From positions 1 through 64,000 of IMG/VR virus record IMGVR_UViG_3300025860_001451: 64,000 nucleotides of DNA; one strand, written 5' to 3'. This DNA is from a virus. Under the pieces are notes generated by a model that worked only from the letters and a program-made list of their open reading frames with translations, had not been told where the DNA came from and ran no database searches. Shown one piece after another: positions 29,799 through 61,335 of the stretch (the first letter of the stretch is position 1; each line of letters begins with the position of its first letter). The translations under genes and the position numbers were made by a program.

Positions 29799-30804
29799 CC
29801 ATTTTTTTCACCAGACCTAAAAAGTCTGTCTTTCTTTCCCAGTAAAGTTCTGTTTCAGCCAAGGTTGGATCGCCAAGCAAAAGATCAACTTCTGCGGGTC
29901 TATAGAATTCTGAATTTACTTGAACAAGAAGTTTGTCACAGCAATAATATTTAGAGTGTATACCTTCTCCTTCCCAATAACACTCGTCTGTATTGAAGCC
30001 AGCAAATCCAAAAGCTATTTCTACAAACTCTCTAATGGTATGTGTTTCCCCAGAGGCGAGAACGTATTCTTTTGGCTTCTCTTGGTTGAGCATCAACCAG
30101 ATACCTTCCACAAAATCTTCAGCATCAGACCAGTCTCTTTTTGCTTCTAGATTTCCTAGTTCTAGAGGTTTGAATTCATCTCCTATGCTGTTTTTCCAAA
30201 AAATATCTGCAACTCCTTTTGTTACTTTACGGGTAAGAAACTCTTCTCCGCGACGAACTCCTTCGTGGTTAAAAAGCCATCCTTGAATTGCGTAAAGACC
30301 ATAAGATTCCCTCCACACCTTCACCAAGTGTCTCGCGGAAGCCTTAGAAGCTCCGTAAGGGCTTCTAGGGCGCAATGGGTGAGTCTCATCCTGTGGAGCG
30401 GTAACAACGTCACCAAACTCTTCCGAGCTGCCAGCGTTGTAATAACGGCAATTGGGACAATGTTTCCGAATCGCTTCCAGTTGATAAAGAACAGCCATAC
30501 AGTTTGTGTTCATGTGGTTTTCTGGCATATTCCAGCTAATACCCACAAATGAGTTCGCGGCGAAGTTAATAAAATAGTCTGGCATCTCTTCCGCAATAAC
30601 ACGGTCAACATTTGATTGGTCTGTAATGTCGAGGTCTATTAATTTGAAGCGAGGGTTGTCAGCTAAGTGTTTGATGTTATCGTGGTTTTTTACGCTAAGT
30701 CGGCGCACACCAGCAATGATGTAATTGTCGGTATTTGCCAACAAATAGTCTGCCATGTGACTTCCATCTTGCCCCGTTACTCCTGTGATTATTACTTTCT
30801 TCAT
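29776..30804 (-). CDS. gmd: GDP-mannose 4,6-dehydratase
   Basis: It converts GDP-mannose to GDP-4-keto-6-deoxymannose, the precursor of GDP-fucose and other deoxysugars. The 342 residues show the NADP-binding signature TGVTGQDGSHMADYLL (6-21), SSEEFGDV, SPYGASK with the catalytic Tyr and Lys, and the GMD hallmark NHEGVRRGEEFLTRKV. It is the last gene of the operon starting at 33301. No partner GDP-fucose synthase is visible in the window, so the final sugar depends on a host enzyme or a gene elsewhere. Confidence 0.9.
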   Translation of the reverse strand: MKKVIITGVTGQDGSHMADYLLANTDNYIIAGVRRLSVKNHDNIKHLADNPRFKLIDLDITDQSNVDRVIAEEMPDYFINFAANSFVGISWNMPENHMNTNCMAVLYQLEAIRKHCPNCRYYNAGSSEEFGDVVTAPQDETHPLRPRSPYGASKASARHLVKVWRESYGLYAIQGWLFNHEGVRRGEEFLTRKVTKGVADIFWKNSIGDEFKPLELGNLEAKRDWSDAEDFVEGIWLMLNQEKPKEYVLASGETHTIREFVEIAFGFAGFNTDECYWEGEGIHSKYYCCDKLLVQVNSEFYRPAEVDLLLGDPTLAETELYWERKTDFLGLVKKMVDNDIRM

Positions 30805-40872: not shown

Positions 40873-43800
40873 TTATACAATTGGGTAAGTTGGATAATTA
40901 GACCATAGCTTGACAGTCATATTATCGTATTGTATTCCAGTTCCTCCATAGGAACCAGTTACATTATTTTCTACATATAAATCTCCAGTTGGTCCATTGA
41001 AAGAGTTTAAGCCTAAGTTCGAGGCATCTAATGATATATAAACATCTCCAATGCCAGTGCAACCAGCAAAACACTCTGAACCTATAGAGGATATATTGTT
41101 TGGAATAACTAAATAATCACTAAACCCATCGCAATTCTTGAAGCAGGAATTTCCTAAATTATAAAATGTGTTTGGTAACGACAACTGCCCAGTAAACGAA
41201 CAGTTTATGAAAGACTCGTCTCCAATAGATTGTAAATTATCTGGAAAAACAAGAGCCCCACTTAAAAGATTACAGTCAGCAAAGGCTCTGTTCCCTATAC
41301 TCACAAGATTAGGGGGTAGTTCAAAGATTTTTGGAGCAAATATATTATCGTCAGTTTTTAACTTGCAATTTTCAAACGCGCTATCGCCTATCGTTGTTAG
41401 GCTTGATATATATAGTGGATTGCCAATATCTCTTTCTTCAAACAACAGGTTTTCAAGTTCTGTGCAATTATAAAAAGCCTTGCTTCCTATTTCGTTCAAA
41501 TTTTTTGGTAAGATTAAAGAGTTGATCTTAAATCCCTGGAAGCTATTATCTCCTATCTTGTTAAGCAGACCGCTTCCATATTCGAATGTTAAACTAGCAG
41601 TATCAGAAAAATTCCTAAAGAATGCATAATCTTGTTGTTTTGTTTCTGTCACCCAAGATCCTACCTTCAAAGCAGAAAAATTAGTATTTTGAAATTTTTG
41701 CTCATTCAAAGCTAAACCCGTTCCAATTGTCAGGGTTCCATCTAAACTACTACAACCTGCAAAAGCCTGGTCACCTATAGAGGTACAATAGGGACCTATA
41801 GCAAGATCACCAGATATGTAGGAGTTTTTAAAAGCCGAAGACCCGATGGTTTCGATATTCACTAGATCAGTCAATTGCGTTGAGCCAGGAAAAGGAGACC
41901 CATAATTTTCATAAGACCCTATACCTATATTTTTTAATAATTTTACATAATTCAAATCTTTAAATTTTGTATTTTTAAATGCATAATCTCCTATATTTAT
42001 TAGCGAATCTGGATAAATAGATTGAGAAGTAAATTCACAATTTTCGAAAGCACTAGCCCCTACGCTTGTTATGTTTGATGGAAAGTTTAAAGATCCCGTA
42101 AATCTAAAATCTTTGAAAGATGCATAACCAATTCCAGTGACATCATCTTCAATAATCAAAGAACCACCAACGTCTAAATTTAAACCGCTATAAAAACTAT
42201 AATCACCAGAATTTAATTGATTAATACACCCTGGAACCACTAAGGTTTTTAAAGAGTTGCAACCAGTAAATGCTGTTTGAGATATAGAACAACCTGTTCC
42301 TATTTTTAAAGAATCTAATTGAGTACAGCCGCTAAATGCATATTCTTCTATAGTCACGTTATTACAGTCAAACGAAATTCTTCCTAACATTGAACTACAT
42401 CCTTGAAAGGCAGATTGGCCAATAGCAACAATCTCTGGATTAAAGCTAGGTGCTGAAACAAGTGAATAATCTTTAAAAGCCTGGCTGCCTATACCAGTAA
42501 TACTAGAGTTTAAATTCAAAAATTGAGTAGAACCTGATATATAATCATAATCTCCCTGTTCTATTGTTAAAATATCGTCTGTTACATTAAGAGTGTTAAA
42601 CGGAATAGATATACTATTAAATCCGCAATTTTCAAAAGCATAAGGCCCTAATTTTGTAAATTCTGGGATCTCTAATGAACCAGTTAAGCCAGCACAATTA
42701 TAAAAAGCGTAGCTATTTATTTTTTGTAAAGATTCTGGTAGTAAAAGGTTACCACTAACTTTATAGTCGTTGAATGAATAGTCTCCAATTTCTTCTAAAT
42801 CGATGTTTAATATAATAGGAGTCTCAAAACCGCTATAGAAATCAAAGTCACCATCGTTTATTATAGTGGTTCCGTTTTGTATAAACAAACTGTCAAAAGA
42901 AACCCCGCTAAATGCTGTATCTGAGATTACTGTATTGTTGCCTACTGTTAAACTTCCTTTAAGTCCAGTACAATTTGCGAAAGCAAAATCTCCTACTGTA
43001 TTAATACTTGCGGATATGTTTAGAAAACCATTAAATCCAGTACAATCATAAAACGCTGCATCCCCTATTTCTGTTAGGAAGTTGCTGCTTAAGTCTAAAT
43101 CCCCAGTAAAGTTATAACCAGAGAAAGTTTCAGTTCCAATAATAGTTACGCTTTCATCAAAAGTCAAAATGCTTTGGTCGTCAAAATTATAAGGTTCGTT
43201 TTTATACCACTCATAATCTGCCTTAACTAACGGACTATTATAGCCCTGATAAACACAAAGCTCTTTGAAGTTACATCCAGAAAAAGAATTAACTCCAGGT
43301 TGAATATTGTTGCTTATGCATAATGTATCAAAACCAGAACAGTTTGCAAATGCATAATCCCCAATAGATACACTGTTAACTGGACCATCCTGATAAAGCT
43401 CAAGCTTCCCATTAAAATTACTACAATTATGAAATGCTGATTTTCCTATTGTGCGCGGGAACCAATAACTCAAACCTTTTAAAGTAAGATTCCCATTAAA
43501 GCCGCTACAATTTTTAAAAGCCTCCTCCTCTATTCCCGTGAAAAAAGGAGAAAATGTCAAGTCACCAGTAAAACCACAGTTTTTGAACGCAATAGGGCCC
43601 GTTCTTTGAACACCGTTCATGCTTAAATCTTTATTAAAACCAGTGCAGTTATAAAACGCCCCAGAGCGTACATCTTTACAAGCCCAAGGCAATGTCAAGC
43701 CTCCAGTAAAACCAGTACAATTATAAAAAGCCTCAGCTCCAATATCTTCCAAATCAGAAGAATTTGGACGACTTACATTTATGCCGCCAATAAGAACAGG

Positions 43801-46800
43801 TTCCGTTTCTACATTTTCAATTTTAAATTCTCCTCCAAATGGAACATTTTTAAACGCCTTTTCATATATAAATTTTAAACCAGAGCCAATAACTAAATTC
43901 CCATTAAATAATGAATCTTCAAAAGATGAAATTCCAACACTATTAATGCTTTCTGGTATCCTAAAGTCTCCAGTAAAACCGTAACCACTAAAAGCATAAT
44001 CCTCTATTGTTATTGGCCCGTTTCTAATATCTAAAGAGCTTGAATTTACAAAGCTATCATAATATGAAAAATCTGAAGAGTTTATATTTTCTACAAACCC
44101 ATTGATTGTTAAATTAGTAAAAGAACAACCAGAAAAAACTTGAGAACCTACATTATGACCAGTTCCAATTATTAGACTTTTGTTTAGACTTTCACAATCA
44201 TAAAATGCAGCGTCACCTATTCCAGTAACGGATTCTGGTATTTCAAGATTTCCGTTAAATCCAGAACAACCAGAAAACGCAGCGTCGCCTATAGAAATTA
44301 GCGTATTCGGGAAAATTAATGATCCAGTTAAACTATCTGATTTAGCAAAAGAGTTACTGCCTATTTGATCTATTATTAAAGGTCTATTAGAATTGTCTAT
44401 ATCTAATATACCGTTAAGACTCTCACAATTATAAAAAGCATAATCTTTAATCCTTGTAACATTATTAGGTATAATTAAATTTCCAGTCAATTTATTACAT
44501 TCATAAAAAGAATATTCATTTATAATATTAATTTTTTCATTTAAAATCAAACGCCCATCAAATCCAGAACAGCCATAAAAAGAACCATTACCAACATAAT
44601 CGGTATTAACACCTATATTTAAATCCCCACTAAAACCGTCGCAACCAGAAAAAGCATAATCTCCTATATTTTTATTTTTCAAGGGTATATATAGATAACC
44701 TTTGAAATCGAAACCATCAAATGAACCGCTGTTTATACCAGTAACGTTTTTCCCAATTTCTAAAGAAGCGTTTAATTTTGATAAGCTGTCGAAGTCTTGG
44801 TCTTCTATTAATATAACATTATTGCTGATTCTGATGTTGTTGAAGTTACAACCAGAAAAAGTGTCACTGCCAACTTCTGTATTTTGGTTACTGCTTATTG
44901 TTAAAGTCCCAGTTAATCCAGAACAGTTTGCAAAAGACTTATCGCCCAACCGTTTTATACTATCGTGAATCTTTAAGTCTCCTATAAGACCAGAGCAGTT
45001 ATAGAAAGCTTCAGAACCTATACCTGTGGTAGCTGTTGAAAGTAGAATTTCTCCTTCTAAATTATGACAATTATAAAAACCAGAGTTTCCTATATTTTTT
45101 AATGTAAGAGGAAAAACCAAGCCACCATTAAGATTTTTACAGTTTGAAAAAGAACCGTCACCTATTCCTGTAAGGTTCGAACCTAATTTTATCAACCCAT
45201 TAAACCCAGAACAGTTTAAGAATGCACCATCTCCAACATAATCTGCGTACCTTGGTATTTTTAAGTCGCCAGTAAAATTATAATTATCAAAAGAATAGTT
45301 TCCTATTGTTTCCAAACTACTTGGCATAGTTAATTTAACTTCGCTTTCACTCCAATAATCAAATGATGAATCCTGAATGTTTTTTACAGATTCGCTTATT
45401 GCTAGCTCATTAAAATTACACAGTAAAAATGCATCGGGTCCTATGGATGTATTATCGCTTATTGTTATTTTAGAATCAAATCCAGTACATCCATAAAAAG
45501 CCTCTTTACCAACATTAGTGACATCGTCTTTTATTATTAGATCTCCCTTGAATTGATTGCAGTTATAAAAAGCTCCAGAAGGTATTGTTTTTATACCATC
45601 ACCCAAACTCAAATCATTAAATCCAGAACAGTTATAAAAAGCGCCTTTTTTGATCCCCGTAACACCCCTACCAAGATAAAGTCTGCCAGTGAGATTATAA
45701 CAATTTTTGAAGGCATCATTTCCTATACTTTCTAACTCATCAGAAAGGTTTAAAAACCCACCTAAATTATAACAATTATTAAAAGCATCATTTCCTATAT
45801 TTTTAACATCACTCCCAATAATTAAACTATATGCATTTTGATCATCAAAACTCCAATTGTTTGGTATGTCTTCACTTGTAGTCCTTATTAATATTTTATT
45901 TTCATCAAAAACCTCAGTAGGACCAAAGTTATATAAAAGCGCGTTTAAACCTCCATTTCTATGTTCGTCTAATGGGTTTGCAAAACTTGCTTTTTTTCTA
46001 CCCAATTCATTTATATCATAACAGTTAAAACTAAAAGACGCTGAATAAGCTATTTCGTCATTTACTTCCATTTGATGATTCATAGACTCCAGCTTTACAC
46101 CATCGAAAAAATATTTGATAGCATAAGAAGAACCGTTTGAATCTAACGCTCTTAAACTAAAACTATAATCTTTTTCTGATGCTAACAAACCAGAAATAAA
46201 ACCACCCTCATATTTGCTAACTCTAGATGAAATTGATATATTACCATTAATTGGATATTTTAATTTTCTATCATACGGATAATTAGACCCCATTCCATAT
46301 AAATCTACTCTATTTATTGGAATTGTAACAGAAAAGTTTTGAAGTATATGTTTTTCATTAACTATACTTTGACCTCCTACTTGAATATCCTCCAAATATA
46401 AATCCAAACCACATACAGGACTGTGTAGATTAGGATTTGTTCTGTCTATTTCTCTAAGAAGCCTACTGCCGCTTATAAATGTTTCTTCCAAATTTAGTTT
46501 TCCAGCGCCTATATTATTACCTTCATTAAGATTTATAGCTGGAGAATTTATCATTCCGCTATATATAGAAGCTTCCGTGTTTGAGCATTTATATTTTGTC
46601 TTTACGGTTGGCACGGACCCGTTGCTTAAAGAAAATCCATATTCAGTTAAATAAGCGTTTCCAAAAGCAATAATTTCCCCGCTATTTGGTGTTGAAAGAT
46701 CGCTGGACTTGAAATATTCAATTCCGTCCTCTCCTTGGTCTGGGTGATTATAAAAGTAAAAGTTGTAACTTTTATCTTTTATTCCGTCAAGAAGGCCTAT

Positions 46801-47091
46801 TGGCTCATAACCCCCCTCCTCTAAAAAATTAAAACCCATTAGGTATTCATTTTCCATATGTGGAGAAAACAGATAATCTATGTTTAAATCAACATCTGGG
46901 TGCCTATTTATGTCGTCTATTTGATAAAAAGAAGAGCCAACCTGTTTACCCTTTTCCCTACTCATTGAAAAACCAAAAGACGCAGCTTGTACGCCGCCAA
47001 AGACATAACCAGTTTCAGTCCCTGGTTTGAATGCTGGAGACGGAGTTATTAATACTAATGTATTGTTGCTCTTTAATGTTAACCTACTCAT
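40873..47091 (-). CDS. Giant BspA-type leucine-rich repeat tail adhesin
   Basis: Residues 1 to about 395 share layout with the N-terminus of the FN3 tail protein at 4679 (YLTEYGFSLSNGSVPTVKT; FSVTIPINRVDLYGMGS), perhaps tail-tube-like carrier domains. From about 395, SEDIPNNWSFDD leads into dozens of 23-residue LRR_5 units, pattern IGxxAFxxCxxLxGxLxIPxxVTx, with a C-terminal end LWSNYPTYP. BspA repeats are known from surface adhesins that bind host proteins or glycans, so it likely acts as a receptor-binding or decorating fibre. 2,072 residues is very large for a phage adhesin. It follows the M-like gene by three bases. Confidence 0.85.
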   Translation of the reverse strand: MSRLTLKSNNTLVLITPSPAFKPGTETGYVFGGVQAASFGFSMSREKGKQVGSSFYQIDDINRHPDVDLNIDYLFSPHMENEYLMGFNFLEEGGYEPIGLLDGIKDKSYNFYFYNHPDQGEDGIEYFKSSDLSTPNSGEIIAFGNAYLTEYGFSLSNGSVPTVKTKYKCSNTEASIYSGMINSPAINLNEGNNIGAGKLNLEETFISGSRLLREIDRTNPNLHSPVCGLDLYLEDIQVGGQSIVNEKHILQNFSVTIPINRVDLYGMGSNYPYDRKLKYPINGNISISSRVSKYEGGFISGLLASEKDYSFSLRALDSNGSSYAIKYFFDGVKLESMNHQMEVNDEIAYSASFSFNCYDINELGRKKASFANPLDEHRNGGLNALLYNFGPTEVFDENKILIRTTSEDIPNNWSFDDQNAYSLIIGSDVKNIGNDAFNNCYNLGGFLNLSDELESIGNDAFKNCYNLTGRLYLGRGVTGIKKGAFYNCSGFNDLSLGDGIKTIPSGAFYNCNQFKGDLIIKDDVTNVGKEAFYGCTGFDSKITISDNTSIGPDAFLLCNFNELAISESVKNIQDSSFDYWSESEVKLTMPSSLETIGNYSFDNYNFTGDLKIPRYADYVGDGAFLNCSGFNGLIKLGSNLTGIGDGSFSNCKNLNGGLVFPLTLKNIGNSGFYNCHNLEGEILLSTATTGIGSEAFYNCSGLIGDLKIHDSIKRLGDKSFANCSGLTGTLTISSNQNTEVGSDTFSGCNFNNIRISNNVILIEDQDFDSLSKLNASLEIGKNVTGINSGSFDGFDFKGYLYIPLKNKNIGDYAFSGCDGFSGDLNIGVNTDYVGNGSFYGCSGFDGRLILNEKINIINEYSFYECNKLTGNLIIPNNVTRIKDYAFYNCESLNGILDIDNSNRPLIIDQIGSNSFAKSDSLTGSLIFPNTLISIGDAAFSGCSGFNGNLEIPESVTGIGDAAFYDCESLNKSLIIGTGHNVGSQVFSGCSFTNLTINGFVENINSSDFSYYDSFVNSSSLDIRNGPITIEDYAFSGYGFTGDFRIPESINSVGISSFEDSLFNGNLVIGSGLKFIYEKAFKNVPFGGEFKIENVETEPVLIGGINVSRPNSSDLEDIGAEAFYNCTGFTGGLTLPWACKDVRSGAFYNCTGFNKDLSMNGVQRTGPIAFKNCGFTGDLTFSPFFTGIEEEAFKNCSGFNGNLTLKGLSYWFPRTIGKSAFHNCSNFNGKLELYQDGPVNSVSIGDYAFANCSGFDTLCISNNIQPGVNSFSGCNFKELCVYQGYNSPLVKADYEWYKNEPYNFDDQSILTFDESVTIIGTETFSGYNFTGDLDLSSNFLTEIGDAAFYDCTGFNGFLNISASINTVGDFAFANCTGLKGSLTVGNNTVISDTAFSGVSFDSLFIQNGTTIINDGDFDFYSGFETPIILNIDLEEIGDYSFNDYKVSGNLLLPESLQKINSYAFYNCAGLTGSLEIPEFTKLGPYAFENCGFNSISIPFNTLNVTDDILTIEQGDYDYISGSTQFLNLNSSITGIGSQAFKDYSLVSAPSFNPEIVAIGQSAFQGCSSMLGRISFDCNNVTIEEYAFSGCTQLDSLKIGTGCSISQTAFTGCNSLKTLVVPGCINQLNSGDYSFYSGLNLDVGGSLIIEDDVTGIGYASFKDFRFTGSLNFPSNITSVGASAFENCEFTSQSIYPDSLINIGDYAFKNTKFKDLNYVKLLKNIGIGSYENYGSPFPGSTQLTDLVNIETIGSSAFKNSYISGDLAIGPYCTSIGDQAFAGCSSLDGTLTIGTGLALNEQKFQNTNFSALKVGSWVTETKQQDYAFFRNFSDTASLTFEYGSGLLNKIGDNSFQGFKINSLILPKNLNEIGSKAFYNCTELENLLFEERDIGNPLYISSLTTIGDSAFENCKLKTDDNIFAPKIFELPPNLVSIGNRAFADCNLLSGALVFPDNLQSIGDESFINCSFTGQLSLPNTFYNLGNSCFKNCDGFSDYLVIPNNISSIGSECFAGCTGIGDVYISLDASNLGLNSFNGPTGDLYVENNVTGSYGGTGIQYDNMTVKLWSNYPTYPIV

Positions 47092-47094
47092 TTT

Positions 47095-48075
47095 TTAATA
47101 ATTTTTATTTGGTAATACCCCCAATGGATCTTCGATCATTGACACCGACAAATTATGAGAATTTTTCCCATTCCATTTGTGACTCCATTCTGTAGCTATA
47201 AGTACTTTCGGCAAGTTATATAGAGATGGAACATTATGAGGGAACCTCATGTAACCCCCGTGAGACTCTAAAAAATGCAACATTGACTTAAGTTGCTTTG
47301 TGTCTATTGATGAAAATTCGTAAGTTATTGGGAAAACGGCAGAATTTTTCCCTTTTTGCATTCTAGTAGAATAAAATCTGCCCAATTTTTCTATTTTAAA
47401 CTCTACTTCATTTTGCCAAAGAGAGTCTGGACACCAATGGAAATCCTGATCCCAATTTGAGTACCAAGATTTAGGATCTTTTGAACCCTCAGAAATATGA
47501 TCGCTTGTGCAATAATAATAATTTGTTATCTTTTTGTTATTACCAGCAAAATAGACAACATCATTTTTTTTGTATTCTTTATTTGTTTGCCAATCTTGCG
47601 CTTGATAATTTAAAAAATTCAAACTTCTCCAATTAAAAAGGTTTGCTTCTTCTTCTATAGAAAATTTTATTGTCAACTGGTAGTCATTGTTTGTTCTGTG
47701 TATCACAGAATAACCATCACAATATCCGCTCAAACTATTATAAATTTTATCTTCATTTGAAGATGTATATTCAGCATCTATATAAAAGCTGACAACACCC
47801 TTGGTATCCTCTAAAAATTTAATTATTTTTTGTATTGTTTCTTTGTTATATTTATAAACAAGAACGAAATTAGCTACCATGCTATTTATTCCACGCGGTT
47901 TATATGAAAACAAACTATCTTCATAATCCATTTTTATTACATTAGAACTAAAAGATGCTTTTGATCCATATGTTGGAGGGTATATATTAAATATACTATC
48001 ATTTGAAGTTTCAGCTTCAATATTATTAGATCTGTCATACCAAAGATCCGATTTATTTATTCTGCTTTGTGCCAT
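47095..48075 (-). CDS. Minor tail protein (lambda M-like) with inserted CBM
   Basis: Start at 48075 (MAQSRINKSDLWYD), five bases after the J-like stop. The 326-residue protein has two similar halves of the phage minor tail family: YPPTYGSKASFSSNVIKMDY... at the N-terminus and a second half with EFKIEKLGRFYSTRM and a LKSMLHFLESHGG segment. Between them, residues ~158-210 look like a CBM5/12-type carbohydrate-binding module (DWQTNKEYKKNDVVYF, then YYYCTSDH). The insert could help bind host polysaccharide at the tail tip (inference). Lambda has M upstream of L, not after J. Confidence 0.65.
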   Translation of the reverse strand: MAQSRINKSDLWYDRSNNIEAETSNDSIFNIYPPTYGSKASFSSNVIKMDYEDSLFSYKPRGINSMVANFVLVYKYNKETIQKIIKFLEDTKGVVSFYIDAEYTSSNEDKIYNSLSGYCDGYSVIHRTNNDYQLTIKFSIEEEANLFNWRSLNFLNYQAQDWQTNKEYKKNDVVYFAGNNKKITNYYYCTSDHISEGSKDPKSWYSNWDQDFHWCPDSLWQNEVEFKIEKLGRFYSTRMQKGKNSAVFPITYEFSSIDTKQLKSMLHFLESHGGYMRFPHNVPSLYNLPKVLIATEWSHKWNGKNSHNLSVSMIEDPLGVLPNKNY

Positions 48076-48080
48076 GAGTA

Positions 48081-51000
48081 TTATATATTTTCCTTGTAAT
48101 ACCAGCCCCACCATGAAGCGGTTGTATCGCACCATACATCTGGGGCTCCAGGGATCGTATTAACTAGGTTGTAATATTCCCCAACGTATCGTGCTGGATT
48201 AATTATTAAATAAGGAGGTTCGGCATATTTTGTTTCTAGTACGAATGAATCGCCGTTGTCATCAACAAAATCTGTTGGGTTCTGATTAGAAGGCAATAAA
48301 TAACTCCCTGGAAAGACCTCTTGCGAGCCAAAACCGATACCAATTCCTTCATCTGCTGGTGGCGAAGCCTCAAATCCTCCTCCTTCATCACACGATGTTG
48401 ATTCATTATCTAGTATAACCTCAGGATTTCCCATAGGGTTATTTTCATCAAATCCATATCCAAACTGATTGTCAGATAAAATCCAGGCCATTTTACGAGA
48501 GGTTTTTTCATATTGAGGGTTAGCAGAGTAAGTACAAACACCCTCTATCCACCATGTTTTATCATAATTAATACCATTACTATACGTTGTTTTTCCATCT
48601 TTATATCTCTGGTTTCCAGCCGAATCTATAAGTTTGACTGGCACTGGATTTATAACGCAATCAGGCGTTTCTCTATAGGATAAAGTAAAATCCCATTTTG
48701 ACAACAAGGTTACAGTGACATCGCCAAAGAATTCACTCTCTCTTACATAAGATGTATTCCAACTATATTTGCCGTTTTGATTTGCCCCGTACGTAGACGT
48801 TGAAAGTCGGTAATTTGGGTAGCTTGTAAGGTCACTAGTCCAGGAGAAAACATAATTTGGTAGGTCCGAAGTATAAAAAGGCTTAAGTTCATCACCCGCA
48901 ACAATTTCAGTATAAGGAACCTCTTGACCCGCTTCTAGCGCCTCTATCTCGTCATATTTGGTTTCTAAATACTTATGGGCTGTTACTTCATATGCGTCTT
49001 CAGAATCTGATATTGATAATATTTTATAAACATCTGAACTTCTATTTATTAATCTTGATCTGTAAGCAGAGCCCTTGGGAATAAACTCTATTAAATTAGA
49101 ATTAATTGAGTTCTCTTTTATGAATAAAGTACAACCGAAATCATCGTTTACATAAGATTCAATTTCTAACTCTTTTATTTGAGAAGAACTGCCTAGATAA
49201 CCTGAATTAAAAGAGCTTTCTTCTACAGGTATATATACTTTTATTTTCTTTTCATAATCTGATGAAAATGGGTTGTTTATTTTAATCCAATAATTGTCTT
49301 GATCAATTTCCATAACCCTTCCATAGTTTATGGATCCAGTTTTTAGTTCGTCTTCTATATGAATGAAGTCTCCAGGTCTACAAAGTAGAATTTCATTCCC
49401 ACATTCAAAAGAAACAATCTGATTTTCTTTTGTGGTTTGATAAATAACATGCCAAGCAGCCCTTCTGGCTTGGGCTTTTGAAGTCACCCCAATAACATCA
49501 AGTGTTTTTTTAAAAACGCCTCTTTTTCTTATATCTTGGGAATCTTCAACAAGTTCGGTTTTTGTTTTAAAATCCTCGTTTTGGTCTATATATATAACTT
49601 CTATAGTATTAAATTGCTCTTCTCTTTTATAGGTAGAATAACTAAAGGCTCCGTTCCTTACATTTTGATTATTAAACAAAGCAACAGCATCCTTTGGTCT
49701 GTCGTCTGTAAATTCAACAGAATCCTTTGAATAATAAATGGACCCCCTAAATATTGCTGTTATTGTATTTAAAGCGTCGTATATTTTAGTTTCTGCAGAA
49801 AACATAATATTACATGAAAATCTTGGTTCCAAACCGCCGTCGTTGTTTTGAACCCCAACAAAGTTTCCATTATCATCAACAGCGTCGCAATACCTTGCTA
49901 TGTTATAAAGATCCCATTTATTTATCGTTTCCGCTTCTATATGATTTCCCAAACCATATCTAAAATCGGTCAACATATCATATAAAATCCAAGCTGGATT
50001 ATCTGTCCATCCCCAATTAAAATTCCCATTCCAATCTCCTTCGTATATGTTTGTATCTATTTGGCCTAATTGGCAAGCTTTTTTATAACGTCTTTTATCA
50101 TAACCGTTTGGCAGTGTCGGGCTATAGTTAGATGGTATTCTAACCTGCTTTAATTTGCAATCAAAAGTCCTTATTGGTATACTGGAAAACACCCTAGCAT
50201 CAACTACAGTCGCTACCGTTGCTGAATAAGGGTAGTTTAGAACAAACTCTTGAACTTCTGATATTTTTTCAACAGAAACCTCCTTATCAACTAAAGTAGA
50301 GTTTGATTCGTGTGAAAATTTTGTTACCCTAATAAACCTGTTTAAGGTTGAGGTGTACATAGAGCTAGTGTTATACCTTTCATCAGGTATACCGCGATCT
50401 CTAATAAAAGGCGATTCTAGCTCGAAATACTCATACAAACCCCCTCTTCCAGTTCCAATTCCTCCTAAAACCTCCTTAATATCACACCCCAAAATTTCTT
50501 GTCCATCATCAGCCCTAGGGTTGCCAAGGTCAATTGATACACCGTTTTCAACAAGGGCCGATATTTGGAAATTTGTTGCATATGTTACTGTCTCAATACC
50601 ATTTACATCAATGGCTCCAGTTTCTACTCTTATGTTTAAAACTGCAGGTATTCTAGCTCCAGCTTCAAGTTCAGGGTCTTCAACATCACCAATAGACTTT
50701 TCTACCATGTCCGCCAATCTATCTATTTTTATAGTAAGATTAACTTTTGTTACATTTGGATTATAAATTACATGCGTTAATGGGATAGCCTTTTCATCAT
50801 AGTCTTGATAATTTTTATCCCAGTCTGAGTATGATTTTTCTGTTCTATCCCTATAGTCGTTACTTCCTTCTTCGCCAGGATTTGGAAACCTAGATTTTGC
50901 AAAGTTAACACTCGGATACGAGCACTCCCCCCCCGATTTAAGGAGGAAGCCGCCCCCACTTGGCTTTATTTTTTGTACCTGACCCGATGTGGAAAAAGGC

Positions 51001-51158
51001 CCAAAAAGTCTATAATTATATACGTAATCAACAGGAACTATTTGTCCAAAACTTACCCCTAAGCTGCTCTCATACCCTTTAGAAAAGCGCACATCCGCAT
51101 TAGACCAATTATATTTGGCCGTAGCGTTTTCATTAAAATCTATTTGTTCGCAATTCAT
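48081..51158 (-). CDS. J: Tail tip host-specificity protein J, main part
   Basis: This 1,025-residue protein is the tail hub that contacts the receptor. The best match to lambda J is IPSNYSP followed by GDWNGNFNWGWTDNPAWILYDMLTDFRYGLGNHI, and then a YNIARYCD segment. Later, ARRAAWHVIYQ and CRPGDFIHIEDE match the Phage-tail_3 region. The start of J is missing here and is encoded at 52162-52425. The open frame begins MNCEQIDFNENATAKYNW and overlaps the preceding gene by four bases. The C-terminal ~300 residues have no clear FN3 domain and are rich in aromatic residues. Confidence 0.88.
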   Translation of the reverse strand: MNCEQIDFNENATAKYNWSNADVRFSKGYESSLGVSFGQIVPVDYVYNYRLFGPFSTSGQVQKIKPSGGGFLLKSGGECSYPSVNFAKSRFPNPGEEGSNDYRDRTEKSYSDWDKNYQDYDEKAIPLTHVIYNPNVTKVNLTIKIDRLADMVEKSIGDVEDPELEAGARIPAVLNIRVETGAIDVNGIETVTYATNFQISALVENGVSIDLGNPRADDGQEILGCDIKEVLGGIGTGRGGLYEYFELESPFIRDRGIPDERYNTSSMYTSTLNRFIRVTKFSHESNSTLVDKEVSVEKISEVQEFVLNYPYSATVATVVDARVFSSIPIRTFDCKLKQVRIPSNYSPTLPNGYDKRRYKKACQLGQIDTNIYEGDWNGNFNWGWTDNPAWILYDMLTDFRYGLGNHIEAETINKWDLYNIARYCDAVDDNGNFVGVQNNDGGLEPRFSCNIMFSAETKIYDALNTITAIFRGSIYYSKDSVEFTDDRPKDAVALFNNQNVRNGAFSYSTYKREEQFNTIEVIYIDQNEDFKTKTELVEDSQDIRKRGVFKKTLDVIGVTSKAQARRAAWHVIYQTTKENQIVSFECGNEILLCRPGDFIHIEDELKTGSINYGRVMEIDQDNYWIKINNPFSSDYEKKIKVYIPVEESSFNSGYLGSSSQIKELEIESYVNDDFGCTLFIKENSINSNLIEFIPKGSAYRSRLINRSSDVYKILSISDSEDAYEVTAHKYLETKYDEIEALEAGQEVPYTEIVAGDELKPFYTSDLPNYVFSWTSDLTSYPNYRLSTSTYGANQNGKYSWNTSYVRESEFFGDVTVTLLSKWDFTLSYRETPDCVINPVPVKLIDSAGNQRYKDGKTTYSNGINYDKTWWIEGVCTYSANPQYEKTSRKMAWILSDNQFGYGFDENNPMGNPEVILDNESTSCDEGGGFEASPPADEGIGIGFGSQEVFPGSYLLPSNQNPTDFVDDNGDSFVLETKYAEPPYLIINPARYVGEYYNLVNTIPGAPDVWCDTTASWWGWYYKENI

Positions 51159-52012
51159 AAAACACTCTCATCCCTTATCATCACTATTTCTACACCATAT
51201 TTAAAGAAATCTATTAAATAATGGTCTACAATCATTTCATTAAACAACACCGTCTTTCCATCTTTCGTTGTCTTATGTTTCATATTTGAAATCACAGGAA
51301 GCCTCATAAAATAAAAGCCCTTAACCTTACCTGCCCAAAATCCATTTTTATCTAAAGATGGATAAAGAAGAGATAATGAATTTTTTCTAAAAACAGAACC
51401 AATCTTATCTCCTTTTGATTTCAGCTTAAAACTCAACTCATTTTGCTCTTTAAAAATATTTCCATGTTCTTCTTTTGAGTAGCCTTGTATTTCCTCATTT
51501 ATATAAATAGACATGTAAGGGGAAAAGTAATTAAGGCCATCCAAAATCCAACCTCTAGATATTTTTTCGTCAGAATTATAACCGAACTTTTCGCAGATAT
51601 AATCCTTTAGAGAATTCAGTGTAATGTTTTCAACAGGAAAGGTTTTTAAGCCAAGGTTTTTGACAGCTATTTTTTTAGCTACTTTAGATTCTATTTTGTT
51701 TTCATTCGTCTCGCTTATAGAATTCAAAAGCTCTTTGGATCCTCTATACAAATTAGACAAGTAACAAAAAACATCATCCTTATGCTTGACTCCCAGACAC
51801 AAATTAATATTATATATACCTCTGTAATCAGAAAAATCCTTTATTGGTACAGATGTATTTTCAAAAGAAGAGTTTCCATAAATATTCTTACCAAGCTCGA
51901 CGTCCAACGATTCGCTTTTAAAATCTCTTATGTCATCAAGAATTCTTTGCGTAGAATTAATATATTTTTCTTCTTCTATATATTGAGAAAATATTATTTT
52001 GTTTTGTTTCAT
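51155..52012 (-). CDS. Unknown protein inserted inside split J
   Basis: This 285-residue protein is not recognised. It is mostly alpha/beta, with helical N-terminus (EEEKYINSTQRILDDIRDF), a middle SLYRGSKELLNSI-type segment and a C-terminal FNEMIVDHYLIDFFKYGVEIVMI. No endonuclease motif (LAGLIDADG, GIY-YIG, HNH) and no transposase motif is seen. It lies between the two parts of the J homologue, overlapping the second by four bases. It may be a tail tip component. Confidence 0.75.
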   Translation of the reverse strand: MKQNKIIFSQYIEEEKYINSTQRILDDIRDFKSESLDVELGKNIYGNSSFENTSVPIKDFSDYRGIYNINLCLGVKHKDDVFCYLSNLYRGSKELLNSISETNENKIESKVAKKIAVKNLGLKTFPVENITLNSLKDYICEKFGYNSDEKISRGWILDGLNYFSPYMSIYINEEIQGYSKEEHGNIFKEQNELSFKLKSKGDKIGSVFRKNSLSLLYPSLDKNGFWAGKVKGFYFMRLPVISNMKHKTTKDGKTVLFNEMIVDHYLIDFFKYGVEIVMIRDESVL

Positions 52013-52021
52013 TCTTTGAAT

Positions 52022-52153
52022 TTATTTTTCAGAAGATAAATCATTAAGCTTCATATTGGTATGAAGTATTTTCATTATAGCTTCTCTCAAACATAAGCCA
52101 ATAAGATTTTTACGAACAGGCTTGAGTTGTTTTATTTTTGTGTTTTTTTCCAT
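52022..52153 (-). CDS. Small protein, 43 residues, inside split J
   Basis: A short frame starts at an ATG eight bases after the stop of the J N-terminal gene and ends nine bases before the 285-residue gene. It is basic (MEKNTKIKQLKPVRKN) with a helix-like LREAIMKILH. The tight spacing supports expression, but a frame this short could still be chance. Confidence 0.45.
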   Translation of the reverse strand: MEKNTKIKQLKPVRKNLIGLCLREAIMKILHTNMKLNDLSSEK

Positions 52154-52161
52154 TTATTTTT

Positions 52162-52425
52162 TTAAGTAAGTGTTCTTGTCTCCTGTACAGCGACCCCATT
52201 TAAATAAACCCCTTGTAAAATATCGCCCCCCTCAACAACTATCCCTAATTTATTACAAATACCCTCTATCGGGCCCTCGCAAAGTACGTCTAGGCATTCT
52301 GCGTTAGAATAAGAAGACAAGTGGTTATACTGACCTAATTTAGGAGGAGTTAACTGCGGGGGCTTTGGTTTCGGTGGTCCACCACCAGCTCCAGCCACCA
52401 TTTGCTTTTTTTGTAAATGTTTCAT
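52162..52425 (-). CDS. J protein N-terminal fragment, as separate gene
   Basis: This 87-residue protein matches the start of lambda J: a Gly/Pro-rich lead, PPKLGQYNHLSSYSNAECLD, VLCEGPIEGI and VYLNGVAVQETR. Lambda J has SEGPIEGP and VLLNSTPVLD at the same point. The gene then stops. The continuation, with NATAKYNW and then VRF, lies 1 kb downstream. The break falls exactly in the loop after VLLN. Confidence 0.8.
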   Translation of the reverse strand: MKHLQKKQMVAGAGGGPPKPKPPQLTPPKLGQYNHLSSYSNAECLDVLCEGPIEGICNKLGIVVEGGDILQGVYLNGVAVQETRTLT

Positions 52426-52445: not shown

Positions 52446-53027
52446 CTACAAGACGCTTGAAGAACCGTTGGGGCCATCATCATTCAACTCCATTGGTTTG
52501 TATGATTGAGGGAAGTTTTTTGTAGTATATTGTACGGTATAAGTTCCTACCTTCAATCTACCATAGCCCAGCGGGACACCAGATCCCTGAGTAGCGATAT
52601 TAGCTTTGTTTGAAAAGGAAAAAGACTGGTCTATAGCTCTGGTTGAAGCCTCTACAGTTGGGGGTTCTGGTTCTTTTGGGGCTAACAGGAGCATTAACCC
52701 ATAAGATATTGCTGCTACCACAACAGCTATGGCCACTTGAGTGGCTATATAAGCTATTGTACCCCAACCACTACCCATTATAATGGGTAATATATCTATA
52801 TTTTTTGGAGTTTTTTGTAAATCAGATTCAGTTAGTTGTTTTAAATCTACACCATCAACAATTATAGTATAAATAAAACCCTGCTCATGTAAATTTTTTA
52901 TTCTTTTTAAAAATCCTTTTTTATTTGAGTTTATAGCATGTAAAGCTTCCTTGGGTTTAGATATTCCATATTCAAAATACTCACCAAATTCCAACGCCAA
53001 TATGCCGTGTAATCTTATCGTTGTCAT
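52446..53027 (-). CDS. I: Tail assembly protein I
   Basis: This 193-residue protein matches lambda I by layout: an N-terminal ubiquitin-like domain (IRLHGILALEFG, SKPKEALHAI), a hydrophobic membrane-like segment near residues 88-115 (YIATQVAIAVVVAAISYGLML), and the conserved VPLGYGRLKVGT near 150. It lies between K and the J fragment, as in lambda. Confidence 0.82.
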   Translation of the reverse strand: MTTIRLHGILALEFGEYFEYGISKPKEALHAINSNKKGFLKRIKNLHEQGFIYTIIVDGVDLKQLTESDLQKTPKNIDILPIIMGSGWGTIAYIATQVAIAVVVAAISYGLMLLLAPKEPEPPTVEASTRAIDQSFSFSNKANIATQGSGVPLGYGRLKVGTYTVQYTTKNFPQSYKPMELNDDGPNGSSSVL

Positions 53028-53452
53028 ATATTATTTTTTATATCTTCTATTAAATCTTTTTCAAATTCCAGATTACTAGGAACATAAAAACCAATCTTAT
53101 CTGTTATTACAGAATAAATCATAAACGGCACACAGCAGTTTTCTGAAATAAGTATGTCATACTCGGAAGGTTTTTCATCAATATCTATATGACTATGATA
53201 TACAGATATTAATTTATTTTTATCTTTAAAAGACAAGTAATCCAAAGGGTCAACTAAAAACTCTTCGCGTGGGTTAGTCGATATATTTTTTGCATTTTGA
53301 ACAATGTACCTATTGTTTTTTATACCCACGAATCCGCAACTCTCTAAAAACTTATTATTCAAACAGTTTTTCCTTACCGTCTCAAAAACTTCTTCCACGT
53401 TGTCGCATAAATCTTCTTCGTAAACTTCTTTTATTTTTTTTAAATTTTTCAT
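53024..53452 (-). CDS. K: Tail tip protein K, JAMM metalloprotease only
   Basis: This 142-residue protein has the JAMM/MPN signature ESCGFVGI, then YHSHIDIDEKPSEYDI (HxH, S and D ligands). In lambda K the JAMM domain is followed by an NlpC/P60 domain, which is absent here. It may process tail or host proteins during tail tip assembly. ATGA overlaps join it to L and I. Confidence 0.82.
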   Translation of the reverse strand: MKNLKKIKEVYEEDLCDNVEEVFETVRKNCLNNKFLESCGFVGIKNNRYIVQNAKNISTNPREEFLVDPLDYLSFKDKNKLISVYHSHIDIDEKPSEYDILISENCCVPFMIYSVITDKIGFYVPSNLEFEKDLIEDIKNNI

Positions 53453-54465
53453 ACTGTTCTTTTGAATTGAAATCCGTCGGTCCCAGGGAAACCACCAAAC
53501 GGTAACGCAACCTTGTCATCGTTAAAATCTCTAAAGTGTTCCTGGCAAGATTCTATAGATTTATTGCAACCATCTAGCTGCCAAAAATCTGGGTTTTCTC
53601 TTGGTAGTCTATTTATATTATTATCTCTTCTTGAAACGTAAACTTCTACATGAATGTCATCAGCTCCAGTGATAACTGATCCCTCATAATTTGTGGTACC
53701 AATGTTTTTGCTTCGTCCGTAATGCAGCAATCTAACTGTATCGCCCTTAGAATAGGACTGATTATAATCAAAAAGAATACCTGGGTCAGTGCTTTGATTA
53801 ATAACAACTCCATTTTCATCTGTAAAAGGTAAACCCGACTCTGTATTTATCGCCCTTTGAGAATACCTACACCCTGGGCCCCTATAAGTCCAACTGCAAT
53901 ACTTTGACATTATTCTCCTTCCATTCAAATATATAGTATCCATATCTAACGGAGAAGTTAATTCAAGCAACACAGAATATTTATTTTCTTGAATTTTTCT
54001 CGAAACTAAAAATCTCTGGTTTGAAATTTGAGCAGAGCTGTCAGCTTCTCCCCAAGGATTTTCAAGACCCTCAAAATTAGCATCATCCAAAAACCTAACA
54101 AATGTTTTTTGCCTGTATATAACAGCCGCCCTTAGATCGTTATACTGCTTCATTATGTCTGAAATAATATAATCAGGATTGGCTACTGTTAGTTTAGGCC
54201 TATTCAGACCAGCTGTCACCGAGGATTCGTTATCTTCTATTTCCAACGCCAACGGGGCGTACAACCTGCCCTGCCACCATATACTGCCTCCAAAAAGAGA
54301 CCCACTATGAAAATAATAAACACCAGCAGTACTAGGCAGCTCACCATTAGTACCTTCTTTTAAATAAATTTCTCCCTGAGATTTCAAAGTGAAAAATTCA
54401 ATCATTGCCGTTGGTTCCAACGACATTAATTCTTGAGACACCTTTTCCGAGAAACCTTCAGCCAT
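53449..54465 (-). CDS. L: Minor tail protein L, four-cysteine type
   Basis: This 338-residue protein resembles lambda L: a N-terminal domain with FTLKSQGEIYLKEG, a middle with NPDYIISDIMK, and four C-terminal-half cysteines (SKYC, GPGC near 190-203; DGCN, ESCQ near 297-309) that in lambda L bind an iron-sulfur cluster. It is the first gene of the tail tip operon. The upstream region is A/T-rich with no Shine-Dalgarno; a TAAATA lies six bases before the ATG, without a clear -35. Confidence 0.85.
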   Translation of the reverse strand: MAEGFSEKVSQELMSLEPTAMIEFFTLKSQGEIYLKEGTNGELPSTAGVYYFHSGSLFGGSIWWQGRLYAPLALEIEDNESSVTAGLNRPKLTVANPDYIISDIMKQYNDLRAAVIYRQKTFVRFLDDANFEGLENPWGEADSSAQISNQRFLVSRKIQENKYSVLLELTSPLDMDTIYLNGRRIMSKYCSWTYRGPGCRYSQRAINTESGLPFTDENGVVINQSTDPGILFDYNQSYSKGDTVRLLHYGRSKNIGTTNYEGSVITGADDIHVEVYVSRRDNNINRLPRENPDFWQLDGCNKSIESCQEHFRDFNDDKVALPFGGFPGTDGFQFKRTV

Positions 54466-57257: not shown

Positions 57258-57848
57258 ATGGCACTAAATCCTTTCATACCCGCAAGTGAATCGACTCACT
57301 TGACATTCCGCAACAATTATAATGCCAATATATTAGAGATCGAATCTCGTATATCTGGTCTTGAGGCGGCTCCACCAAGTCACACCCATGCAGTAACAGA
57401 TATTGATTCTACGACAGCTGTAAGCGGTTACGTTATCACTGCAGATGGCGGTGGAAACGCAACCTGGGAAGAAGCTCAAGGCGGTGGAGGTGCCGCTAAT
57501 TTTAGCGTTGTCACGGTAGACACCCCAACTTATACACAAATCCCACAGCACACACATCACCTTTACGATGACACAGATCTTGGTGGTGGTAGTGGTAGTG
57601 GTAGTGGTAGTGGTAGTGGTGGCGGCGGAGCTTGTATAGTAGTTGATCTTCTCGACCCGACATTACATGAGGCGGTTACAACACATAAGAAGATCGGTGA
57701 TTCGTGCGATGTTCTGCTTCTTCCTCCTAGTGGTTGCACTATTGACGGTGTTGTAAGTGATGGTCTTGTAAGCGGTTATACCTTAACATCTCAAAACGAA
57801 GCTATCTCTATATTCAGTGATGGAGTATCTGGTTACTATATAGAATAA
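57258..57848 (+). CDS. Tail fibre with HTH motif and Gly-Ser linker
   Basis: This 196-residue protein has a coiled start (LEIESRISGLE), SHTHAVTDI (a fibre motif in which His pairs bind metal ions in trimers), and a long Gly-Ser linker of hexanucleotide repeats. A C-terminal beta region follows the GGGGACIVVD segment. It overlaps the next fibre gene by one base. Confidence 0.75.
   Translation: MALNPFIPASESTHLTFRNNYNANILEIESRISGLEAAPPSHTHAVTDIDSTTAVSGYVITADGGGNATWEEAQGGGGAANFSVVTVDTPTYTQIPQHTHHLYDDTDLGGGSGSGSGSGSGGGGACIVVDLLDPTLHEAVTTHKKIGDSCDVLLLPPSGCTIDGVVSDGLVSGYTLTSQNEAISIFSDGVSGYYIE
57588..57617 (+). repeat. Hexanucleotide repeat GGTAGT x5
   Basis: Five copies of GGTAGT encode Gly-Ser pairs, flanked by further GGT and GGC codons (57582-57628). 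Copy number changes would keep the frame and alter linker length. Confidence 0.95.
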
Positions 57849-58474
57849 TGAGTCACACTGCAAAAACTCCTCCAACATCTAATGCAATTGCAGATCTTCC
57901 AGATGCGAAAGATGGCACTGTTGCTTATGATACTGCTGCGGGTAAGCCAGTAGCAAGAATAAATGGCGCATGGGAGAGTATTGCTGGTGGTGGTGGTGGT
58001 GGCACACCTACCGTTGTTTATGATGATGGTGCTGCTGTTGGTAATACAGACCAAATCCAAGGTGATATACCAGATAACTGGAAATCTACGGATTCAAGCT
58101 TAAAAGGATTAGTAATTGGCACAAGTTGCACAAGTATTGGGAGTAATGCTTTTTATTATTGCGCTGGCTTAACTGGTTCATTAGTCATTCCAGATAGTGT
58201 TACAACTATTGGACCAAATGCGTTTGCGCAAAGCGTTTTTGGTTCTGGTAGCATAACCAGTTTAACCATTGGAAGCGGCATTACGAGTATCGGGAGTGCT
58301 GCTTTTTATTATAACGCTAATATAACTAGAATAGAAATTTATGCTACAACTGCTCCTACGATTGGTAGTGATGCGTTTCTTAGCATCCCTTCTCCCGCAG
58401 AAATACACGTTCCAGCTGGAGCGACAGGCTATGCAGCGTCGTATGATGGTTTAACAGTAGTTTACGATCTATAA
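57848..58474 (+). CDS. LRR tail fibre, paralogue 1
   Basis: This 208-residue protein has a conserved fibre N-terminus (MSHTAKTPPTSN, GTVAYD) and a Gly-rich linker, then GDIPDNWKSTDSSLKGLVIG and LRR_5 repeats (SIGSNAFYYCAGLTGSLVIPD). It shares both parts with the genes at 59061 and 59779, and the LRR part with the giant adhesin. Confidence 0.8.
   Translation: MSHTAKTPPTSNAIADLPDAKDGTVAYDTAAGKPVARINGAWESIAGGGGGGTPTVVYDDGAAVGNTDQIQGDIPDNWKSTDSSLKGLVIGTSCTSIGSNAFYYCAGLTGSLVIPDSVTTIGPNAFAQSVFGSGSITSLTIGSGITSIGSAAFYYNANITRIEIYATTAPTIGSDAFLSIPSPAEIHVPAGATGYAASYDGLTVVYDL
58102..58162 (+). repeat. LRR coding segment shared by three fibre genes
   Basis: A ~61-bp segment starting AAAAGGATT is near-identical at 58102, 59312 and about 60027, covering the GLVIGTSC to AFYYC region. 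DNA-level similarity shows recent duplication or conversion. Confidence 0.85.
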
Positions 58475-59060: not shown

Positions 59061-59777
59061 ATGAGCCACACAAGTAAAGAGCCACCTAGCCAATATGCAG
59101 CTGGCGACCTTCCTAGCAACCCGCCAGAAGGAACAGTTGCTTATGATAAAACCAACCAAAAGATGGTTGCGTTTAAGAATAGTTCTTGGGGTGACTTCGG
59201 GGGTTCTGGAGGTGTAGGATCTACTACTTATGTTAGAGACAATGTGGCTGGGGTTATTGACCAAATCCAAGGTGATATACCAGATAGCTGGAAAAATTCC
59301 GACACCTCTTTAAAAGGATTGGTTATTGGAACGAGTTGCACAAGTATTGGGAATAATGCTTTTTATTATTGCGATGGCTTAACTGGTGACTTAGTCATTC
59401 CAGATAGTGTTACAAGTATTGGGAGCAGCGCTTTTTATTATTGCACTGGCTTAACTGGTGATTTAGTCATTCCAGATAGTGTGACGACTATTGAGGATTA
59501 TCCTTTTTGGTTTTGTAATAATATTACAACTGTAGTTCTTGGTAGCGGACTAACCTCTATAGGGGAAGAAGGCTTTGGTTTAATGCTTGGATTAACTACA
59601 GCTTATATTAATTGCCCAGCCTCAAGTTTTACAGGTGAGGGTGGTTTCTATTCTTCCCCTGTAGCAAATATATATGTTCACGCTGATTATGTTGCTGGTT
59701 ATGATGCTACTTGGAAGACAGCACAAAACACAACAGCTACAGTATCAACTTGGACAAACTACCCTAACATACCATAA
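59061..59777 (+). CDS. LRR tail fibre, paralogue 2
   Basis: This 238-residue protein has the same N-terminus (MSHTSKEPP, GTVAYD) and LRR_5 repeats. A 69-bp unit (23 codons, one LRR) is duplicated internally near 59363-59500, with near-identical DNA. It ends STWTNYPNIP, like the giant adhesin and paralogue 3. It starts two bases after the DUF4376-like gene. Confidence 0.8.
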   Translation: MSHTSKEPPSQYAAGDLPSNPPEGTVAYDKTNQKMVAFKNSSWGDFGGSGGVGSTTYVRDNVAGVIDQIQGDIPDSWKNSDTSLKGLVIGTSCTSIGNNAFYYCDGLTGDLVIPDSVTSIGSSAFYYCTGLTGDLVIPDSVTTIEDYPFWFCNNITTVVLGSGLTSIGEEGFGLMLGLTTAYINCPASSFTGEGGFYSSPVANIYVHADYVAGYDATWKTAQNTTATVSTWTNYPNIP

Positions 59778-59778
59778 G

Positions 59779-60495
59779 ATGTCACACACAACTAAAATAC
59801 CACCAGCTAAATACGCAACTTCAGATCTTCCAACTGACGTTGCCGTTGGGACTATTGTGTTTGATGAAACAACAAGCGAACACAAATCATTTAACGGATC
59901 ATCATGGGACGCTATAGAAGGCGGCGGTATTGGAACTCAAACTATTGTTTTTGATTCTACTGGTCCATCTTATGACCAAATCCAAGGAGATATTCCTGCC
60001 AACTGGAAAAATTTTGACTCCTCTTTAAAAGGATTGGTTATTGGAACGAGTTGTACGAGTATTGGGAGTAATGCTTTTTATTTTTGCACTGCCTTAACTG
60101 GTGATTTAGTGATCCCAAATAGTGTTACGAGTATTGGGTCTTTTGCGTTTGATGAGTGCAATGGCTTAACTTCATTAACCATTGGAAATAGCGTTACGAG
60201 TATTGAGAATCGGGCTTTTGGTGGTTGCTCTGGCTTAAGTGATTCATTAATTATTCCAAATAATGTGACAAGTATTGGTAGTTATGCGTTTTTGAATTGC
60301 ATTGGCTTATATACAGCATATCTAGCGCCGCCACTAGCAAACGTTGGTAGTAATGCATTTCAAGCCTCTGGATTAAGTACCATCTATGCTAAAGATGCGG
60401 TAGCCAATGGCTGGACATTGGGCGCTGGTCAAACAGTCGGTGGTAAACCCAATGTCACCGTAATAGACTGGACAAACTACCCTGTGACACCATAA
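59779..60495 (+). CDS. LRR tail fibre, paralogue 3
   Basis: I chose the ATG at 59779 because it gives the shared MSHTTKIPP start; an in-frame ATG at 59674 lies inside the previous gene. LRR_5 repeats (SIGSNAFYFCTALTGDLVIP) fill the middle, and the protein ends IDWTNYPVTP. 238 residues, same length as paralogue 2. Confidence 0.8.
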   Translation: MSHTTKIPPAKYATSDLPTDVAVGTIVFDETTSEHKSFNGSSWDAIEGGGIGTQTIVFDSTGPSYDQIQGDIPANWKNFDSSLKGLVIGTSCTSIGSNAFYFCTALTGDLVIPNSVTSIGSFAFDECNGLTSLTIGNSVTSIENRAFGGCSGLSDSLIIPNNVTSIGSYAFLNCIGLYTAYLAPPLANVGSNAFQASGLSTIYAKDAVANGWTLGAGQTVGGKPNVTVIDWTNYPVTP

Positions 60496-60537: not shown

Positions 60538-61335
60538 ATGAAAACAGTTCACTTCACATCTGGTCTTCCTAGAGCTTGCTCTACTCTCCTTCAAAATCTA
60601 TTAGCCCAAAACCCGAAAGTTCATGCCACTGCCACATCTGGCGTTCATGAGATGGGATATATTGCTAGAGACTTCTTTGAAACAGAGGAATTTAAAACAT
60701 TTAAAAACCCATTAGATGGTGAAAGACAATACATTAATTTTGTAAAAGGCGGCGTTCAAAATGCTTTTAATGATGACACCGATCGACCAGTTGTGGTAGA
60801 TAAATGCAGAAGTTGGGTCGGTCATTTGGATCAATTGTTTAAAGTATTTCCAGATGCAAAAGTATTAGTGCCAGTAAGGGATATTCGTGGTATTTTATCT
60901 AGTTTTGAGAAACTAAGAATCAAGCATCCGTCAAGGTTTGTGGGTATTGAAAAACAGAATCCTCAGAACTGGACAACCATTGAAAAGAGATCACAAGGAT
61001 GGTTACAAACTCCTCCTCTTGGTATTGCGGTTGAAAGACTTCACGATGCTATTAAACGCCACAAAGATAAATTATACTTTGTTCACGCAGAAAAACTCAC
61101 TAGCAATCCAGTAGAAGAGATGAATAAAATCTGGGATTACCTTGAAATGGATAGGTTTGAAGTTAATCCAATGAATGTCGAGCAATATACTGAAGAACAT
61201 GAGCTTGGATGGCCGTATGGTGAGCATAAAATCCGCAATGTCGTTAAACCTCTTGAACCAGACTGGCATGATGTTTTGGGCAGAGAGTTCTCAGAACAGA
61301 TCAAACAAAGCTTTGACTGGATAAATGAGCTTTAA
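60538..61335 (+). CDS. Sulfotransferase
   Basis: This 265-residue protein has the PAPS-binding pattern TSGLPRACSTLLQNLLAQNP (residues 6-25; phosphosulfate loop) and VLVPVRDIRGILSSF near 110 (3'-phosphate loop). It would sulfate a glycan or small molecule. First gene after its own promoter. Confidence 0.85.
   Translation: MKTVHFTSGLPRACSTLLQNLLAQNPKVHATATSGVHEMGYIARDFFETEEFKTFKNPLDGERQYINFVKGGVQNAFNDDTDRPVVVDKCRSWVGHLDQLFKVFPDAKVLVPVRDIRGILSSFEKLRIKHPSRFVGIEKQNPQNWTTIEKRSQGWLQTPPLGIAVERLHDAIKRHKDKLYFVHAEKLTSNPVEEMNKIWDYLEMDRFEVNPMNVEQYTEEHELGWPYGEHKIRNVVKPLEPDWHDVLGREFSEQIKQSFDWINEL

Follow-up and report, generated by a model that had tools for sequence, protein, structure and literature searches.

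Apparent fission of a lambda J-type phage tail hub gene, with its insertion domain encoded as a separate gene

The stretch of DNA analyzed here, i.e., the first 64,000 nucleotides of the 67.6-kb IMG/VR record IMGVR_UViG_3300025860_001451 (hereafter the window), encodes a tail hub protein of the lambda J family not in one gene but in three, namely an N-terminal piece (J1), a middle gene (orf285), and a piece with the remaining hub (J2). The reading we favor, at a probability of roughly 0.65, is that this is a fission of a lambda-J-type hub gene and that the resulting non-covalent three-chain hub works.

The three genes lie on the minus strand of a tail operon (Table 1), which shares with lambda the gene order L-K-I-J, with J1 in the position of lambda J, as well as the order of the HDII-insertion, FNIII, and hub domains. 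The first-pass annotation had recognized lambda-J homology in two separate frames, with a 43-codon and a 285-codon frame in-between, and a tightly packed run ending in an ATGA overlap; all of this stands, with the four frames lying at the coordinates in Table 1, gaps of 8-9 nt both between J1 and orf43 and between orf43 and orf285, and the overlap of orf285 with J2 in place. orf43 and orf285 share one reading frame with a single TAA between them. The -4 (ATGA) overlap recurs between many neighboring genes of this phage, and no clear Shine-Dalgarno sequence was found at the 23 gene starts examined in the window. Many of these starts are instead preceded by A-rich leaders which, together with the lack of Shine-Dalgarno sequences, may indicate a Bacteroidota-type host. 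Further 3' in the tail operon is a gene for a 2072-aa protein (40873-47091) with BspA-like leucine-rich repeats recognizable by eye; short proteins with similar repeats (also by eye) are encoded at 57848-58474, 59061-59777, and 59674-60495. These leucine-rich-repeat proteins are probably receptor-binding proteins with a variable set downstream. The phage additionally carries a GDP-mannose dehydratase-like and two sulfotransferase-like genes (29776-30804; 60538-61335; 62095-63816).

Table 1. Features of the J locus, of the second group of split J genes, and of the polymerase III alpha region (window coordinates unless a contig is named)
Feature	Coordinates	Strand	Basis
L homolog (minor tail protein L)	53449..54465	-	Pfam Phage_tail_L 7.6e-34
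K-like JAB protein	53024..53452	-	PHROG_30/2635 minor tail protein; weak Pfam Prok-JAB
I homolog (tail tip assembly protein), immediately 5' of J1	52446..53027	-	PHROG_32 2.1e-25
J1, N-terminal J tail hub piece, 87 aa	52162..52425	-	identity to N-termini of intact J of relatives
orf43, 43 codons; probably eroded junction or small leader frame	52022..52153	-	
orf285, J insertion domain as separate gene, 285 aa	51155..52012	-	phmmer homology to in-chain inserts
ATGA overlap of orf285 stop and J2 start, putative translational coupling junction	51155..51158	-	sequence
J2, remaining J hub, 1025 aa	48081..51158	-	PHROG_31; Pfam Phage-tail_3
Minor-tail-protein homolog, 3' of J2	47095-48135	-	
Second-clade split J region, L055	4423-11487		
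Second-clade split J region, L053	4332-11733		
Second-clade split J region, L065	4471-11547		
Polymerase III alpha piece, PHP domain	23218-23958		
Polymerase III alpha piece, RNase T-like exonuclease	22589-23221		
Polymerase III alpha piece, core without PHP	20049-22592		

By sequence, the window J belongs to the same family as lambda gpJ (PHROG_31; PDB 8iyk, 8k35, 8xcg). J2, comprised of an FNIII-like insert, hub domains, an NPAW block, and a C-terminal part, matches PHROG_31 (central tail fiber J; E 2.9e-99) and Pfam Phage-tail_3 (PF13550; 1.4e-15), and a profile of A4 recovers lambda J (8iyk) at 9.9e-69. J1 in turn has matches among the J families (PHROG_1727, E 1.2e-3; also PHROG_31) and is 40-59% identical to the N-termini of intact J in the relatives. 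When seven intact J proteins of phage isolates are aligned with the two pieces, the break maps to one β-hairpin, inside which J1 stops and after which J2 restarts, with no J core residues missing across J1 and J2 taken together. The C-terminus of J1 comprises the hairpin strand GVYLNGVAVQET and four further codons (RTLT) before the stop, and J2 restarts at ..NATAKYNWSNADVRF, the place of a short turn in the intact isolate J. Given that J1 corresponds to about lambda J residues 23-46 (a weak but colinear sequence match) and that J2 residues 84-270 overlap by sequence the FNIII-A insertion (lambda 72-215; PMC10721106), the cut is placed by these matches in the N-terminal portion of the HDII-insertion domain. 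No single reading frame of the window phage spans J from its N-terminal strands through to the hub core; the protein is spread over three frames.

A search of the entire 67.6-kb record with the intact J of a related locus, L096, yields exactly three colinear matches, namely of residues 1-86 to J1 (E 4e-22), 156-386 to orf285 (E 1e-15), and 618-1274 to J2 (E 7e-185); hence, the three-piece arrangement is not a chance one, and no second copy of J was found by this search. The middle gene is related to the in-chain insert of the same L096 J (phmmer 52 bits, E 1.4e-16) and to those of L092 (1.3e-11), L117 (1e-10), and L119 (2.5e-10), with which it is colinear up to its last residue and whose hairpin it shares by its location between J1 and J2. 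Homology to orf285 was detected in 16 other loci, in every one of them (16/16) inside the J frame, and in the order J1-insert-J2 wherever the contig shows both flanks (L212 lacks the 5' end). The first HMM, which was built over all the diverse inserts, retrieved orf285 only at E 0.0045, and it was the sister inserts that made the homology decisive. Since it is homologous to the domain inserted at the same position in the intact J of relatives, orf285 is, on these comparisons, J's own insertion domain and not a foreign gene. The first-pass annotation had J split in two with two foreign genes inside; the split itself holds, but there are three pieces of J rather than two and an intruder, and orf285 has to be struck from the foreign genes.

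The same homology bears on whether a mobile gene of the homing endonuclease type, as mobE in nrdA of phage Aeh1, inserted in J and thereby split it. Split phage genes that keep their function are indeed known (PMC2988022), Stenotrophomonas phage CUB19, with a related J locus, has annotated HNH endonucleases directly 5' of J, and the GC content of orf285 is lower, at 0.296. However, orf285 has neither an endonuclease family match nor a fold match at E<=1e-3, and its homolog occupies the same place in uninterrupted J genes. The homology thus refutes a mobile nature for orf285, for which we rejected the foreign or homing gene candidacy, and we consider this rival as a whole very unlikely; orf43, or the break as such, might still have come from a mobile element. 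No Pfam or PHROG match was obtained for orf285, and the insert profile has no sequence match in PDB. Its AlphaFold2 model (33 relatives; mean pLDDT 71.7, pTM 0.70) is unconfident over the first ~65 residues and confident over most of the remainder (from about residue 66), and predicts an α/β fold with helices followed by a strand set, a helix, and a final strand. This fold found no PDB or BFVD match at E<=1e-3, which is partly attributable to the unconfident residues 1-65. By eye, the secondary structure of the L110 insert resembles this model. orf43 has no Pfam or PHROG match and no detectable relative, and its codon signal is ambiguous with the +2 frame being equally good; its candidacy as a remnant of the N-terminal part of the insert was rejected, as its similarity to the inserts of relatives does not rise above that of shuffled sequences.

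The J homologs were collected by profile-guided (alignment-based) scans of IMG/VR, and many are 38-53% identical to J2; single-sequence pattern scans for relatives of orf285 or J2 returned only the twin contig discussed below, and bacterial genomes yielded no relative. J occupies a single unbroken frame in about 97 related loci, not all of them on separate contigs, and more such loci were found besides. The close group among them has an intact J in which ~250-900 residues are inserted in frame; the insert follows the J1-like start and precedes the KYNFSN strand, precisely where the window J is broken. Thus, related phages do possess an intact J, but with this domain fused to it and not accompanied by a distinct small gene. 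The model of the intact L110 J, which is of modest quality (pLDDT 67.8, pTM 0.45), matches the lambda tail tip (8k35) with E 5e-23. In the J-core tree, the window J forms a long branch beside L092/L096 (SH-aLRT 89) with intact genes around it. Given this grouping among intact J genes, the split is derived in the window lineage, with its exact position in the tree uncertain because of the long branch. The homology of orf285 to the insert, the three colinear pieces without a second copy, and the uniformly fused state of the homologous domain together argue that J underwent fission to J1, insertion domain, and J2, and not invasion.

One other record, IMGVR_UViG_3300025621_001340, has an identical J arrangement, with 9 mismatches and 0 indels over 15 kb and junctions free of mismatches; the two may come from related samples and are perhaps not fully independent. 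Among the loci collected, only these two near-identical records show the break, leaving the split at this site private to one phage. Of the nine mismatches, eight fall within 31 nt (48320-48350) near the C-terminus of J2, where EGIGIGFGSQE in one record corresponds to QGLGIGFQSDQ in the other. No repeat that might be a DGR-type template for this patch was found; it is not obviously DGR-derived and may reflect either local recombination or a mixture arising in assembly. The second record also makes it very unlikely that a normal single J was disrupted by a sequencing or assembly error: at the junction of orf285 and J2, a one-frame offset, a single indel is conceivable, but several changes would be required at that of J1 and orf285, and the second record has the same sequence. 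Also very unlikely is a rejoining of the pieces into a single chain by RNA splicing, protein splicing, or recoding. Searches for Rfam group I/II introns gave only chance hits up to E 10, no intein family was matched, and fold matches to PI-SceI are weak and non-significant (E ~1-2, TM ~0.08). Moreover, the J1 and orf43 frames never overlap while open and a second TAA lies between orf43 and orf285, so that at least three recoding events would be required ahead of the orf285-J2 junction.

The main rival to a working split hub, which we judge unlikely, is that J is broken, with frameshifts and stops having left a defective or recently inactivated hub in a dying lineage or in a minority variant captured by the assembly. 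It is in keeping with a split private to one phage, with the lack of recognizable insert sequence in the region 52162-52012, and with J1, orf285, and J2 frames that do not form a single reading. The gap between J1 and orf285, with its 43-codon frame and several disabling changes relative to the intact frame, would also be expected from erosion after loss of function, and the variable hub insert might be dispensable. However, the three long frames are still open with phage-like in-frame codon usage (J1 z 3.7; orf285 z 6.5, including its first 65 codons; J2 z 12.7), and, on the family regression of J1 versus J2 divergence, the window has a residual of -0.09 SD (664 relative-relative pairs), so that J1 evolves no faster than the hub core. 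Further, the breaks coincide with domain borders, J2 starts in an ATGA, the second record carries the same arrangement, and there is no other J copy to compensate. The tail hub is essential in lambda-like phages, which we also count against a broken J. The codon usage, the rate of J1, and the ATGA start favor separately translated genes under selection; a recent inactivation would look similar.

Accommodating these features, we propose that the ancestor had a single J chain comprising two N-terminal strands of the HDII-insertion domain, a large domain in the hairpin loop, and the remaining hub, and that this chain would have been cut in the window lineage at both borders of the inserted domain to give J1, orf285, and J2. 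These would be translated one after another from a tightly packed operon, in which termination-reinitiation at the ATGA would couple the translation of J2 to that of orf285. The three chains most likely fold together. J1 would then complete the HDII-insertion domain of J2 with its own strands (strand complementation), and orf285 would occupy, non-covalently, the position that the insert normally has on the hub. Presumably, all three products are made and assemble, and the phage would be infectious. The earlier suggestion of a hub made from two chains plus an extra protein would hold, probably, as far as several chains are concerned, but not for the extra protein, orf285 apparently being a domain of J itself.

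Scans for related loci also uncovered a second clade with split J genes (9 contigs: L046, L053, L054, L055, L065, and L202-L205). As in the window, J1, an extra gene, and J2 are encoded in one operon; however, the split site is different, being located after the FNIII-like region and before J2 residue 273 without any hairpin insert, and the extra gene codes for a 187-aa protein apparently unrelated to orf285. Among the members compared, J2 is 57-95% identical (to L055) and the 187-aa gene 35-86%, and J1 is also conserved across the contigs. The split in this clade is an independent event, J having thus been split at least twice, and the clade demonstrates that a divided J can be stable and persist. 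In L053 and L065, J1 and J2 both start with MKILNxxRFxxG, as if J2 had acquired a copy of the N-terminus. In J2 of L055 (5896-11487), a von Willebrand A-like sequence (..DVVFMVDQNMNF..) was noticed by eye between the PSNY and GDWDG blocks of the hub core.

Redistribution of the siphophage hub between chains is known: T5 pb3 combines in one chain what lambda distributes over gpL + gpI + gpJ, the HDII-insertion domain is shared by two chains in gpL + gpJ as well as in RcGTA gp13 + gp15, and the plug domain of T5, which is inserted in its chain, has its counterpart in the separate gpI (PMC10721106). The T5 pb3/lambda pair and the window locus are alike in that what one phage has as an in-chain hub insertion, another encodes as a protein of its own. 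However, the cut distinguishing T5 pb3 from lambda lies between gpL/gpI and gpJ, whereas that of the window lies inside gpJ, ~80 residues from its start, and sets free another domain, one without a name. Likewise, lambda J is one chain without a large hairpin insertion, whereas the window J is three chains with the insertion domain in the middle. Thus, the window locus is the same principle of redistribution at a new place, inside gpJ, and a further step in it. NrdA of phage Aeh1 (mobE) and the gene 43 product of phage 25 are comparable in being encoded in pieces that reassemble non-covalently with function kept (PMC2988022); in those cases the splits are put down to insertions of mobile or other additional DNA, whereas the middle gene of the window locus encodes J's own domain. 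A search for split J or hub genes found no described case in the literature covered. Elsewhere in the window, DNA polymerase III alpha is also in pieces, in three overlapping genes (20049-23958; Table 1).

We consider the chances about even that a working hub is formed, with a separate 87-residue chain completing the HDII-insertion domain of gpJ by strand complementation and with the insertion domain as a free, exchangeable, clipped-on subunit. The locus, together with its intact single-chain relatives, offers a test of whether gpJ tolerates a cut in the HDII-insertion domain and of the way in which an inserted domain turns into a tail-tip protein of its own. The locus further draws attention to a J insertion domain that is widespread in environmental phages (~250-900 aa, without a PDB match in the searches run). 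If the proposed arrangement is true, then, taken with the second clade, the loops of J would be recurrent fission points through which hub insertion domains become separate tail-tip proteins.
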